A stretch of 17,530 nt of DNA from Pseudomonadota bacterium (GTDB taxonomy: Bacteria > Myxococcota > Polyangia > Polyangiales > Polyangiaceae): contig JAEZYO010000086.1 in NCBI GenBank assembly GCA_023419055.1, forward strand, positions 1 to 17,530. Reading direction: 5' to 3'. Positions 12,608 to 15,669 of the stretch are shown here, piece after piece. Below the pieces are notes generated by a model. The model was not told where the DNA came from, ran no database searches, and was given only the letters and a program-made list of their open reading frames with translations. The translations under genes and the position numbers were made by a program. How positions within the stretch are numbered: position 1 is the first letter of the stretch; the number at the start of each line of letters is the position of its first letter.

Positions 12608-12738
12608 CTCATCCGCCCACTGTTTGGACACCTATGAGTCTTAGAAGGCCGAACGTGGTCACTCATCCCAGAACGTTTTGAATGCTCGAGACGAGATCAT
12701 CGTCCAAGCTTTCGTCCAGCCAGTTTCTCGCTCATCAG

Positions 12739-12744: not shown

Positions 12745-12752
12745 CCTCCAAG

Positions 12753-13307
12753 ATGTCCCGTCGCCTGATTGCCACCGCCGTTGCCGTTCTCGCCTGTGCC
12801 ATGCCGCTGGTCGCTTCCGCCGCCCTCTCGAAGGTGGGCGGGACGGTCGAGATCGACGCGAAGGTCCCCCTCTTCAACTTCACCGCTACCTCGGATGAGC
12901 TGAAGGTGTCCGACGACGGCAAGGAGCTCAAGTTCAGCTTGCCGGTGAAGTCGATCAAGACGGGTATCGGGCCGCGCGACAAGGACATGATCAAGCGCTT
13001 CTCGAACGGGGACGTCGTGCTGACGGTGGCGCGCGACAAGGTCAACTTCCCGACCGACAAGCCTACGAAGGGTACCGTTCCCGGCAAGGTCAGCTTGAAC
13101 GGAGTCACCTCCGACGTTGCCGTCCACTACACCGCGAAGAAGGAAGGCGGCGTGATCAAGGTCGACGCGAACTTCAGCTTCAACTACAAGCCGCACCATC
13201 AAGAGCCGGACGGCCCGAAGGGCGGCGACAAAGGGGCGTGCAACCTCGGGGTTTGTGTCAAGTCGCCGCTCGAGGTCAGACTGAAGGACGGCCAGTTCAA
13301 GGAGTGA
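12753..13307 (+). CDS. Secreted YceI-family protein
   Basis: A 184-residue protein with a signal peptide (MSRRLIATAVAVLACAMPLV, cut after ASA at about 23). The mature part is a YceI-like lipocalin-type barrel: a first strand TVEIDAKVPLFNFTATS (31-47), LKFSLPVKSIKTGIGPRDKDMIKRF (59-83) and GKVSLNGVTSDVAVHYTA (111-128). YceI proteins bind isoprenoid quinones or other long lipids in the periplasm, which would fit a redox context. Unusual for the family are HHQ at 148-150 and two cysteines, Cys163 and Cys168, near the end, which could form a disulfide or bind metal. It precedes the heme-barrel gene by 190 bp, with a terminator between them, so the two are probably separate transcripts. The family call is good but not certain. 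Confidence 0.78.
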   Translation: MSRRLIATAVAVLACAMPLVASAALSKVGGTVEIDAKVPLFNFTATSDELKVSDDGKELKFSLPVKSIKTGIGPRDKDMIKRFSNGDVVLTVARDKVNFPTDKPTKGTVPGKVSLNGVTSDVAVHYTAKKEGGVIKVDANFSFNYKPHHQEPDGPKGGDKGACNLGVCVKSPLEVRLKDGQFKE

Positions 13308-13334: not shown

Positions 13335-13376
13335 TGCGCTCGGTGAACGCGTCTGCGTAGCGGGTCGAGCTTTGCT

Positions 13377-13415
13377 ACAGCCGCTCTCTCTTCGGGGAGC
13401 GGCTGTCGCCATTTT
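13377..13415 (+). terminator. Rho-independent-like terminator after the YceI gene
   Basis: ACAGCCGCTC (13377-13386) pairs perfectly with GAGCGGCTGT (13397-13406), with further wobble pairs around a CTTC loop. CGCCA and TTTT (13412-13415) follow. It lies 70 bp after the YceI stop, so it should separate YceI from the heme-barrel gene. Confidence 0.75.
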
Positions 13416-13497
13416 GTGCCGAATGAAGCGGTAAAATGCGGGGTTTCTCGCACGAGTCCGATTGACGAGGAGCCGTCGATAAGGCTTAAGTGGCGCC

Positions 13498-14742
13498 ATG
13501 CACAAGGCTGATCCGTCGCGCGGTCGTGGCCGTTCGATCGGGATGGTTTTCAAGCTCCTCCCCGCGCTGTTGTTCGCAGGGCTCGTCTTGACCGTGAGCT
13601 CTCCCGCGCACGCTTACACTTGGATGATCAAGCACGGCTACCGCTCGTGCCTGACCTGCCACGCGGACCCTGCCGGCGGCGAGACGCTCACCGGCTATGG
13701 TCGCCTGATCAGCCAGGGGGTGCTCTCGACGCAGTGGGGTAGCGGCGAGAACGACGGAGAGCTCAGCAGCTTCTCCAAGTTCATGTTCGGTGCCATCCCG
13801 CTGCCGGACGACCTGCTGCTCGGCGGCAGCCTGCGCGGCGCCTACACGCTGAAGGACGGCGACTTCCGCGTGTTCCCGATGCAGATCGACGTGTACGGCC
13901 AGCTCAAGATCGATCCGCTGATCGTCGGCGGCAGCGTCGGCCTGGCGAAGGTCCCCGCTGGCTCGCCGCACGCACGCGCCGCGCAAGTGACCTCGGATCA
14001 GGGTGACGGCTACAACCTGATCTCGCGCAACTTCTACGTCGGGGCGGAGCTGATGGAGCAGGCGCTCATCGTGCGCGCCGGCCGTCTGAATCTTCCCTTC
14101 GGTGTGCGCATCCCGGAGCACACGAATTGGATCCGAGAACAGACTCGCACCGATCGCGAGTCGGATCAGCAGTGGGGGCTCTCGCTCGCGTACACCGGGG
14201 AGAACATCCGCGGCGAGCTCATGGGGATCGCCGGCAACTATCAGATCAATCCGGATGAGTTTCGCGAGCGCGGCTACTCACTCTACCTCGAGTACTTCAC
14301 GAGCGATCGGGCCGCGATCGGCATCAGCAGCTTGATCACGACGGCGAAGCGGGACCGGCTCACCCTCGAGCCCGACGTCTTGCGCCAGGCGCACGGACCG
14401 TACCTGCGCGCGACCCTGGCCGAGCCGCTCGTGCTGCTCGCGGAGGCGGACCTGCTCTCCTACTCGGATACCGAGCTCGGCTACGCCGGGTTCGCTCAGC
14501 TCGACTACGAGCCGGTTCAAGGTCTGCATCTGATCGGCACGGGCGAGATCTACGACCAGGGATATCCGGAGGACGGCGGCGCGTCGGGGGCGGTGCGGAG
14601 CCCCGGCATCGGTAAGCCGAAGTACGGCGGCTGGGCGTCGGTCAACTGGTTCTTCGTTACCCATTTCGACGCGCGGATCGACGCGATCTTCCGCAAAGAC
14701 GACCCGTTCACGCTGCTCGGTCAGCTGCATCTCTACCTGTGA
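13498..14742 (+). CDS. Outer-membrane beta-barrel protein with one N-terminal c-type heme motif
   Basis: A 414-residue protein. The signal peptide ends in SSPAHA at 39; the mature protein begins with YTWMIKHGYRSCLTCHADPAGGETLTGYGR. CLTCH (51-55) is a single CxxCH heme-attachment motif followed by the GG...YGR pattern. From about 90 to the end there are alternating amphipathic strands rich in aromatic residues and Gly (for example RVFPMQIDVYGQLKI and GWASVNWFFV), finishing QLHLYL as an outer-membrane barrel would. It has no other CxxCH. This suggests an outer-membrane barrel with a heme domain at the periplasmic end, possibly an electron conduit or a receptor; function is unknown. The start is ATG 13498 or ATG 13543, which gives a shorter standard signal peptide. 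It is co-transcribed with the next gene (8-nt gap). Confidence 0.85.
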   Translation: MHKADPSRGRGRSIGMVFKLLPALLFAGLVLTVSSPAHAYTWMIKHGYRSCLTCHADPAGGETLTGYGRLISQGVLSTQWGSGENDGELSSFSKFMFGAIPLPDDLLLGGSLRGAYTLKDGDFRVFPMQIDVYGQLKIDPLIVGGSVGLAKVPAGSPHARAAQVTSDQGDGYNLISRNFYVGAELMEQALIVRAGRLNLPFGVRIPEHTNWIREQTRTDRESDQQWGLSLAYTGENIRGELMGIAGNYQINPDEFRERGYSLYLEYFTSDRAAIGISSLITTAKRDRLTLEPDVLRQAHGPYLRATLAEPLVLLAEADLLSYSDTELGYAGFAQLDYEPVQGLHLIGTGEIYDQGYPEDGGASGAVRSPGIGKPKYGGWASVNWFFVTHFDARIDAIFRKDDPFTLLGQLHLYL

Positions 14743-14750
14743 GGCGAGCC

Positions 14751-15263
14751 ATGAGAACTCTCGAAAAGAAGCTCCGTCTGCTCGCGCGCTGGTCTCGCTA
14801 CCTCCCCGCGGCGTTGCTCTTCGTGGCCACGCCGGCGTTCGGCTCGCCAGAATTCCCGCAAGAGATCCAGGAGCATCTGGATCTCGCTTGTCCGCCGCCT
14901 TGTTGGCTGTGCCACACCACCGCGCAGGGTGGCGGTCCGGCGCCGAAACCGTTCGCAGCCGCCATGATCGGCGAGGGTCTCGGGCCCGAGGAGACCGAGA
15001 CGGTCGCGCCGGCCCTCGACGCCATCGAGGCGATGTCGTCCATCGACAGTGACGGCGACGGCACGAACGACGTGACGGAGCTCCGGGAGGGCCGGAACCC
15101 GAACGTGAACGCCGATACTGCCGACGACGTGCTCTCCTGCGGACCGGACTACGGCTGCGGCGCGCGCGTCGCTCCGACCGCACCGATGGACGGCACGGCC
15201 ATGGCGTGCGCCGTCGCGTCAGCCGCGGTGCTCTTCGCCTTCGGTCGCCGCCGTCGCCGGTGA
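14751..15263 (+). CDS. Secreted monoheme protein with Ca-binding loop and MYXO-CTERM-like anchor
   Basis: A 170-residue protein. The signal peptide (hydrophobic stretch 17-30) is cut near AFG at 31. CWLCH at 51-55 is a CxxCH heme motif followed by a Gly-Gly-Gly and KPFAAAMIGEGL pattern, similar in layout to the heme segment of the upstream barrel. An EF-hand or thrombospondin-type-3 calcium loop, DSDGDGTNDVTE, is at 99-110. The C-terminus (about 130-170) has two Cys near GPDYGCG, a hydrophobic segment and RRRRR, which is the MYXO-CTERM layout cleaved by myxosortase and giving a surface-anchored protein. ATG 14751 has GAGG (14741-14744) upstream; an alternative GTG at 14739 overlaps the previous stop. 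It probably works with the barrel gene. Heme attachment is not shown. Confidence 0.86.
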   Translation: MRTLEKKLRLLARWSRYLPAALLFVATPAFGSPEFPQEIQEHLDLACPPPCWLCHTTAQGGGPAPKPFAAAMIGEGLGPEETETVAPALDAIEAMSSIDSDGDGTNDVTELREGRNPNVNADTADDVLSCGPDYGCGARVAPTAPMDGTAMACAVASAAVLFAFGRRRRR

Positions 15264-15297: not shown

Positions 15298-15325
15298 CGG
15301 CGGTGCTCCTTACGGAGTGCCGCCG
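15298..15325. repeat. Hairpin over the stop codon of the Gly-rich lipoprotein gene
   Basis: CGGCGGTGCTCC (15298-15309) and GGAGTGCCGCCG (15314-15325) pair over 12 positions, two of them G-T wobbles, around the loop TTAC that holds the TAA stop of the minus gene. It lies between convergent genes and could be a bidirectional terminator, but there is no T tract and Gly codon repeats make such pairs likely by chance. Confidence 0.4.
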
Positions 15326-15669
15326 ACTCCGCCGCCACCGACTGCCAGGTCGCCGCCGCCTTGACCGCCGGCGCCACCAGCGCTGGGGGTCCCGCCATTG
15401 CCGACCTCTCCCGCCTGACCTCCAGTGGCCGGGGTGCCGCCTGCCGCGGGCTCTCCGCCTCCGCCCCCGGTGCCCGGAACGCCGCCCGCGCCGTCACCGC
15501 CAGAGCCGGTCGCGCCAGAGCCGTTGCCGGCGGTGCCGGGCGTGCCGGCCTCACCAGAGGTTTCGTCAGGGATCTTGCTGCGATCGACATCCGTGATGAG
15601 CGTGCAGCTCGCTGCGAGCGTCAGGCCCACGAGCGTCGTAATCAGCAATGAGTAAGGTCGAGAGCGCAT
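15310..15669 (-). CDS. Gly-rich lipoprotein, small, unknown function
   Basis: A 119-residue protein. The signal peptide ends in the lipobox LAASC with Cys22 as the lipidated residue, followed by TLITDVDRSKIPDETS, a segment I recall from lipoproteins of this bacterial group (from memory, not searched). The rest (41-119) is low-complexity Gly/Ala/Thr/Pro with recurring GTPGT, GGAGG and GGGG. No folded domain is visible, so it is probably a surface or periplasmic filler, a linker left from a larger repeat protein, or a young gene. The start ATG is followed at once by a basic n-region, which supports it; the frame open upstream belongs to no gene. Confidence 0.8.
   Translation of the reverse strand: MRSRPYSLLITTLVGLTLAASCTLITDVDRSKIPDETSGEAGTPGTAGNGSGATGSGGDGAGGVPGTGGGGGEPAAGGTPATGGQAGEVGNGGTPSAGGAGGQGGGDLAVGGGGVGGTP

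Follow-up and report, generated by a model that had tools for sequence, protein, structure and literature searches.

The stretch of DNA analysed here (the window) comprises 17,530 nucleotides (nt) from a bacterium of the family Polyangiaceae in the phylum Myxococcota (NCBI GenBank assembly GCA_023419055.1, contig JAEZYO010000086.1). Three genes lie in a row on its forward strand: a gene for a YceI-family lipocalin, a gene for an outer-membrane barrel with a single CxxCH heme-attachment motif, and a gene for a small protein (referred to as the partner) that has a single CxxCH and a C-terminal tail of the MYXO-CTERM sorting type. YceI lipocalin, predicted one-heme porin and putative one-heme surface protein form a three-gene unit that is widespread in Myxococcota. 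An initial annotation of the window had recognized the barrel and its partner as a candidate redox pair, but had overlooked the third conserved member of the unit, the YceI gene. The function that we propose for the unit, with a probability of about one half, is that of a minimal system for electron transfer across the outer membrane, which would consist of a lipid or quinone bound to YceI, a heme tethered to the porin and a heme anchored at the cell surface.

The gene order was followed through 183 genomes belonging to the order of genome G001, with up to eight barrel candidates and up to 19 partner candidates taken per genome, so that the counts of genomes are lower bounds. The barrel family is present in at least 58 of these genomes (at an expectation value, E, of 1e-8) and the partner profile matches at least 62 (E 1e-4), some of the latter matches being weak. 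After N-terminal pieces had been merged by hand with their barrels, 77 barrel places were obtained, 66 of them with a partner; as one locus (G074:C90) had been split in two pieces, these correspond to 76 distinct barrel loci. At 65 of the 76, distributed over 53 genomes, the partner lies directly downstream on the same strand, the two profile matches being separated by -11 to 128 nt. Eleven genomes hold two or three such pairs, which suggests that barrel and partner genes duplicate together. The 11 barrel places without a partner comprise four short partial matches, one that ends 384 nt from a contig edge, and six that were fetched with their flanks; 19 of 84 partner places do not adjoin a listed barrel. 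Of 377 genomes drawn from across the phylum, 63 had a match (distant barrels included), and 12 of the strong matches outside the order of G001 were chosen by hand. In all 12 of these phylum-level loci the partner is directly downstream of the barrel, often in abutting or overlapping stop-to-stop frames. Thus, the pair described in the initial annotation is found together well beyond the window.

The YceI gene belongs to the same arrangement. Gene calling and clustering placed it directly upstream of the barrel, in the same orientation, in 14 of a set of 23 distinct wide loci that contained the window. It is also upstream in all 12 phylum-level loci (E 2.7e-45 to 2.8e-34), which have YceI, barrel and partner in a row. 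No other gene family occurs in more than three of these 12 loci, although the gene calling used for this count was simple and overlooked some genes of the unit itself that a six-frame search had detected. Among the 183 genomes, the YceI subfamily (profile A4) is present in 48 of the 58 with a barrel and in none of the other 125, a split that overstates its own independence, as the profile was derived from YceI proteins linked to barrels and the genomes are related; the cut was placed, after the list had been viewed, in the gap between 1.7e-28 and 9.1e-21, and since the profile also favours the subfamily, the corresponding Fisher value of 1.4e-34 is not independent evidence. All 12 barrel genomes that were tested contain the cytochrome c assembly family PF01578, as do eight of 14 control genomes.

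Table 1. Positions of the three genes and of features within and between them (window coordinates)
Feature	Position	Strand	Description and basis
One-CxxCH outer-membrane barrel gene	13498..14742	+	414 amino acids (aa); open reading frame (ORF), homologues, AlphaFold2 (AF2), Foldseek; alternative ATG at 13543
CLTCH heme-attachment motif of barrel protein	13648..13662	+	Residues 51-55; sequence, homologues
Predicted 16-strand barrel	13813..14739	+	Residues 106-414; AF2 strands E106-119 to E402-413; Foldseek matches to general porins
One-CxxCH MYXO-CTERM-like partner gene	14751..15263	+	170 aa; ORF, profile searches; alternative GTG start at 14739
CWLCH heme-attachment motif of partner	14901..14915	+	Residues 51-55; sequence, partner ORFs
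D-S-D-G-D-G-T-N-D loop (EF-hand/TSP3-like calcium loop)	15045..15071	+	Residues 99-107; D.D.DG..D pattern
MYXO-CTERM-type sorting tail	15150..15260	+	Residues 134-170: Gly-Cys, transmembrane helix, Arg cluster; alignment of partners
YceI-family lipocalin gene	12753..13307	+	184 aa, signal-type start; ATG at 12753, possible TTG start at 12678; Pfam, PDB profiles, neighbourhood
Hairpin between YceI and barrel genes	13377..13406	+	13-bp stem, 4-nt loop; possible terminator or attenuator; RNA fold

The barrel and partner ORFs are where the initial annotation had placed them: the stop codon of the barrel gene ends at 14742 and the ATG of the partner gene begins at 14751, i.e., 8 nt apart, although use of the GTG at 14739 would give an overlap of 4 nt. 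Each protein has one CxxCH, as had been noted, and the two motifs occupy the same residues in their respective proteins (Table 1). The barrel protein has, in order, a signal-type start that ends in SPAHA, the segment YTWMIKHGYRSCLTCHADPAGGETLTGYGR, a linker and the barrel. The search for its homologues scored 7999 candidates, of which 1417 were below E 1e-3; counts for this family refer to the best 120 of the 1417, the window protein itself among them. CxxCH is present in single copy in 118 of the 120, and the two homologues without it (P0014 and P0112) begin inside the protein, i.e., are truncated at the N-terminus. Together with the partner, in which CxxCH is present in 49 of 49 distinct ORFs of the fetched loci (retrieved by a profile built entirely from CxxCH-bearing proteins), this shows CxxCH to be conserved, in favour of the idea in the initial annotation. 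An alignment of 23 of the best 120 barrel homologues has many invariant residues in the heme segment and in the barrel. There are two candidates for the sixth ligand of a heme in the barrel protein, namely Met43, present in 118 of the 118 CxxCH-bearing proteins, and His46, present in 105; the corresponding numbers for the phylum-level loci are 11 of 12 for Met and 12 of 12 for His. In locus L122, Leu occupies the position of the Met. The distance from CxxCH to a conserved FPM in the second strand is 70 residues in the window protein and ranges from 66 to 257 in 117 homologues, so that the length of the tether that holds the heme segment of the barrel varies greatly. Where barrel matches come from named sources, both of two homologues are from Polyangiaceae, as are two of three loci in named genomes, the third being from Myxococcales.

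The outer-membrane barrel predicted in the initial annotation is borne out by modelling. An AF2 model from 23 sequences places 16 strands in the span of residues 106-413 (mean predicted local distance difference test score, pLDDT, of 72; predicted template modelling score, pTM, of 0.73), and its best Foldseek matches are general porins, e.g. OmpT of V. cholerae (E 5.7e-12), with a TM-score of about 0.5 on the length of the model. General porins have 16 strands. The heme segment and the linker are poorly defined in the model, as expected when heme is not part of it. The barrel had no Pfam or NCBIfam match at the limits used, and a profile search of the PDB with it gave nothing significant.

The partner consists of a signal-type start, CPPPCWLCH, GG, PF, a D.D.DG..D loop, Y-G-C-G, a hydrophobic helix (residues 148-169) and RRRRR. 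The search listed nine partner proteins, from eight of which profile A3 was built, the fragment P0127 being excluded; this profile detected many more in genomes. The tail of the partner has the features of the myxosortase type, in agreement with the initial annotation: in addition to the helix, Gly-Cys is present in 67 of 67 aligned partners and Arg in 55-64 of the 67 at four columns of the tail, in an alignment that tolerates run-on and truncated ends and excludes rows without CxxCH (e.g. P0127). A pattern anchored at the C-terminal end detects Gly/Ser-Cys and an Arg tail in 42 of the 49 partner ORFs. The calcium-type loop of the initial annotation likewise holds, as D.D.DG..D occurs in 40 of the 49 ORFs; comparison with PDB profiles gave weak matches to calcium-binding proteins (best E 0.022), and Pfam TSP3_bac matched one of eight members (E 0.01). 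A model of the partner from 12 sequences has a small helical domain and a tail helix (mean pLDDT 71), with values of 77-90 over residues 31-130 except around CxxCH, where they are 67-72; a Foldseek search of the PDB with this model gave no match at E up to 10.

The initial annotation had also considered the heme segments of the two proteins to be similar. Beyond CxxCH itself, the score of the real pair of segments was reached by none of 400 and by one of 1000 column-shuffled decoys, and the likeness is real but short; over whole alignments it is weak (hhalign probability 17).

Some other arrangements involving the partner were seen. In loci L030, L035 and L057 (genomes G112, G053 and G072) the partner ORF reads through its tail into a lipoprotein-like domain with two further CxxCH, and beside a barrel without partner in genome G162 (L123:3555-5003) two divergent neighbouring ORFs have two CxxCH each, resembling the domain that is fused to the partner elsewhere. 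Tandem partner genes are found at L002:11373-12469 and at G103:C335, the latter on a different contig from the barrel of that genome. The family NF041762 (diheme_GEGP) was rejected as the family of the partner, which scores 18.8 bits against a cut-off of 300 bits; it matches 17 of the 183 genomes, one of them above the cut-off (G084, L092), where the match is a different protein that has in common with the partner a CxxCH and calcium-loop stretch only. In eight loci, a membrane protein whose sequence contains an EE-x-x-K-like motif (FAM 6, e.g. L074:14044-15171) lies four to six genes away, on either side. It is a possible dedicated sortase, and may be an intramembrane protease of the PrsW type.

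The YceI protein of the window scores 28.8 bits with Pfam PF04264 (cut-off 23.7), and profile A4 finds YceI proteins in the PDB (best 7bwl, E 8.6e-9; E. coli YceI, 1y0g, E 9.2e-7); some of the YceI scans used a protein one codon longer, starting at 12750. The window protein and several of its close relatives have a C-terminal pair of cysteines (C-x4-C) that is absent from the compared members of other lineages. Between the YceI and barrel genes, the RNA of positions 13365-13425 is predicted to fold with -28.8 kcal/mol (z -4.07), and none of 200 shuffles was as stable. The hairpin in this region was missed by a strict terminator scan, which reported a single site, located elsewhere, where 1.8 would be expected by chance. 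A scan for promoters of the sigma-70 type found none, a result that is uninformative in this GC-rich DNA. Downstream of the pair, on the minus strand (15310-15669), there is a Gly-rich coding stretch of low complexity after a lipoprotein-type signal.

If the unit transfers electrons, its parts could act as follows. The barrel protein and the partner would each carry a covalent heme, that of the barrel suspended by its linker where the pore opens to the periplasm; the partner would be lipidated, cut by a myxosortase and set on the outer face of the membrane; an isoprenoid or quinone bound to YceI would be the electron carrier in the periplasm; and barrel and partner would pass electrons across the outer membrane, either to export reducing power to the surface or to take up electrons from a donor outside. 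Two hemes alone could hardly span the membrane in a rigid arrangement; the remaining distance would need to be covered by a swing of the tethered heme segment or by a small redox substrate that passes through the pore. This reading is favoured by the conserved order and co-occurrence of the three genes, the conservation of CxxCH in both proteins, the porin model, the MYXO-CTERM layout of the tail, the ligands of other YceI lipocalins and their link with a heme protein elsewhere, the presence of cytochrome c assembly genes and the CxxCH genes called beside distant heme barrels; the closest architectural analogue of the barrel, Cyc2, is moreover an electron-transfer protein. In its widest form, which we put forward as a tentative idea, the unit would be a few-heme redox machine of the myxococcotal outer membrane, with YceI as ferry, a tethered porin heme and a surface heme, that allows exchange of electrons with the outside, or defence of the outer membrane, without multiheme wires; it would then parallel Cyc2, by convergence or as a very remote counterpart, and combine this with a partnership of YceI and heme proteins.

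Several observations weigh against transfer of electrons through the unit. In 22 relatives chosen among the top matches, identity with the window copy over the whole barrel protein is 53-89%, which is more than a generic scaffold would need and suggests a specific substrate or partner. A spacing of up to 257 residues between heme motif and barrel in some homologues does not fit a fixed wire. The unit is also not always complete: the six partnerless barrel loci with flanks have no partner match at E up to 10, and 10 of the 58 barrel genomes are without the YceI subfamily at the threshold used. Of 54 YceI places, 31 are within 1.5 kb upstream of a barrel, and 21 of the other 23 are on a contig without a listed barrel; to this is added the overstated independence of the YceI split described above. 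In the window, the stable hairpin between the YceI and barrel genes suggests that they may not share one transcript. No kinship of the barrel domain with Cyc2 was detected: profiles of the window family and of Cyc2 match each other at E of 0.6 or worse, in the heme region for all but one of the matches listed. Finally, CxxCH aside, the 67 partners share no invariant Met or His (the best column has Met in 38 and Leu in 23), and the lack of a universally conserved sixth ligand leaves room for a role other than that of a conduit.

That last point would be expected if the heme of the partner binds peroxide or another small ligand, as in the main rival explanation, an outer-membrane antioxidant role. 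YceI would carry an antioxidant of the quinol type, and the heme barrel and surface heme would recharge it or remove peroxides, in the manner proposed for the LcoA-BcnA system of Burkholderia. There, a cytochrome b561 (LcoA) and a YceI lipocalin (BcnA) together limit lipid peroxidation, and mutants have raised peroxidation of membrane lipids; in most structures of YceI lipocalins, the bound molecule is reported to be an isoprenoid or ubiquinone-8 (Naguib et al., PMC9113575). The place of YceI in the conserved unit agrees with such a role, but quenching in the periplasm needs no one-heme protein at the surface, and we regard the antioxidant role as unlikely. Another alternative concerns the location of the partner: its C-terminal helix might keep it in the inner membrane, on the periplasmic side, where it would link the barrel heme to the respiratory chain, with nothing on the surface. 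The MYXO-CTERM model TIGR03901 matches two of eight scanned partners at E up to 10 (best E 0.014) and leaves the window partner unmatched, and in the three homologues mentioned above a two-CxxCH domain follows in frame after the tail. Set against this is the invariant Gly-Cys, accompanied by helix and Arg cluster; a plain anchor needs no cysteine. We regard this arrangement as quite improbable.

The remaining alternative takes the likeness to Cyc2 literally, i.e., a dissolved donor, e.g. Fe(II), would enter the pore and be oxidized by the N-terminal heme, with the partner in an accessory role, either binding the donor or supplying it. In Cyc2, a cytochrome with a single heme and a porin of 16 strands are fused in one protein; it is defined by motifs, among them A-x-P-x-F-A-R-[QK]-[TY] upstream of CxxCH, and has iron-oxidizing activity (Keffer et al., PMC8406198). 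Comparison was made with five genes from named plasmids and with the best 120 of 5437 Cyc2 homologues. Cyc2 and the window barrel have in common a signal peptide, a single N-terminal CxxCH (at residue 51 in the window protein), a predicted 16-strand porin and a length of at least 365 aa (414 aa in the window). The next annotated gene downstream of Cyc2 is a c-type cytochrome in five of five fetched loci, in the place taken by the CxxCH partner in the window family, and L-x-x-[YFW]-G-R is present in 118 of 120 window-family proteins and 108 of 120 Cyc2 homologues. By hhalign, the window barrel and Cyc2 align over 49 N-terminal columns only, signal peptide included, with probability 92. The score of their heme segments beyond CxxCH is reached by eight of 400 decoys, and by nine of 1000 in a test that omitted an Ala which both share at the start of the Cyc2 motif and which is the likely signal-peptidase site in both families. 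To judge from these comparisons, the resemblance is modest; a common origin of the two heme segments is possible.

The defining features of Cyc2, in contrast, are missing. A-x-P-x-F is found in 0 of 120 window-family homologues against 108 of 120 for Cyc2 (full motif 95 of 120, in a Cyc2 set obtained with a motif-based bait), and P-x-L shortly after CxxCH, at the same spacing, in 0 of 120 against 109 of 120. As the barrels do not align either, membership of the window barrel in Cyc2 is rejected; the window family is Cyc2-like in layout and, by the published test, is not Cyc2. The cytochromes beside Cyc2 are of a soluble type, whereas the partner has a sorting tail. In papers, no link of these genomes with iron oxidation was found, and no search beyond papers was made. 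Oxidation of a dissolved donor in the manner of Cyc2 is a rather doubtful account of the unit. The heme segment of the partner was compared with Cyc2 as well, and a relationship is unsupported, since 164 of 400 and 428 of 1000 decoys reached an equally good score and the hhalign probability was 23. A profile search of the PDB with Cyc2 gave nothing significant. In the passages of PMC12442345 that were consulted, Myxococcota are mentioned only for Cyc2 sequences of that paper's own tree.

The window barrel also has more distant relatives in Myxococcota. Eight heme barrels (L114-L121) are all homologous to it (E 5.6e-32 to 1.5e-12), and have one CxxCH (L117, L118, L120 and L121) or two (L114-L116 and L119). 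Their heme-segment motif is different, with N-termini of the form A-x-P-x-[FYW] that are nearer to Cyc2 in look. Another CxxCH gene was called beside five of the eight, and no YceI or partner match was found within the fetched 4.5-5 kb. These loci point to a wider family of heme porins.

Should electrons indeed move through the three-gene unit, it would be a redox link to the outside that is invisible to standard family models, and it would tie YceI lipocalins to a defined partner in the outer membrane. No description of the YceI-barrel-partner unit was found in the open-access literature, as covered by titles and the beginnings of abstracts.

Among known systems, porin-cytochrome conduits also combine a barrel with heme proteins and pass electrons across the outer membrane, but are multiheme: MtrCAB has 20 hemes and Pcc of Geobacter has cytochromes with eight and 12, whereas the barrel protein and the partner described here have one CxxCH each, one of which is fused to the barrel. 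With LcoA-BcnA, the unit shares the genomic linkage of a YceI lipocalin to a heme redox protein (PMC9113575); the heme protein there is a membrane b561, and here a predicted c-type heme porin with a surface-tagged, predicted c-type protein. With MYXO-CTERM proteins such as TraA, whose tail is cut by MrtX, which is needed for anchoring of TraA at the surface (Guo, Haft and Wall, PMC11980579), the partner has in common the Gly-Cys signature, the transmembrane helix and the Arg-rich end; it differs in that TIGR03901 misses the window protein and that its cargo is a CxxCH domain. The initial annotation had held that known conduits are multiheme and that a one-heme barrel with a one-heme surface partner would be an undescribed design; as regards the one-heme barrel, this view does not survive comparison with Cyc2, itself a one-heme porin (PMC8406198). 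Unlike Cyc2, the window unit has a downstream protein with a sorting tail and a calcium loop, and a YceI gene upstream. One-heme porins are known from other bacteria as the Cyc2 iron oxidases; the family described here is separate from these, occurs in Myxococcota, and is accompanied by a lipid-carrier protein and, almost invariably, by a CxxCH partner with a surface-sorting tag.

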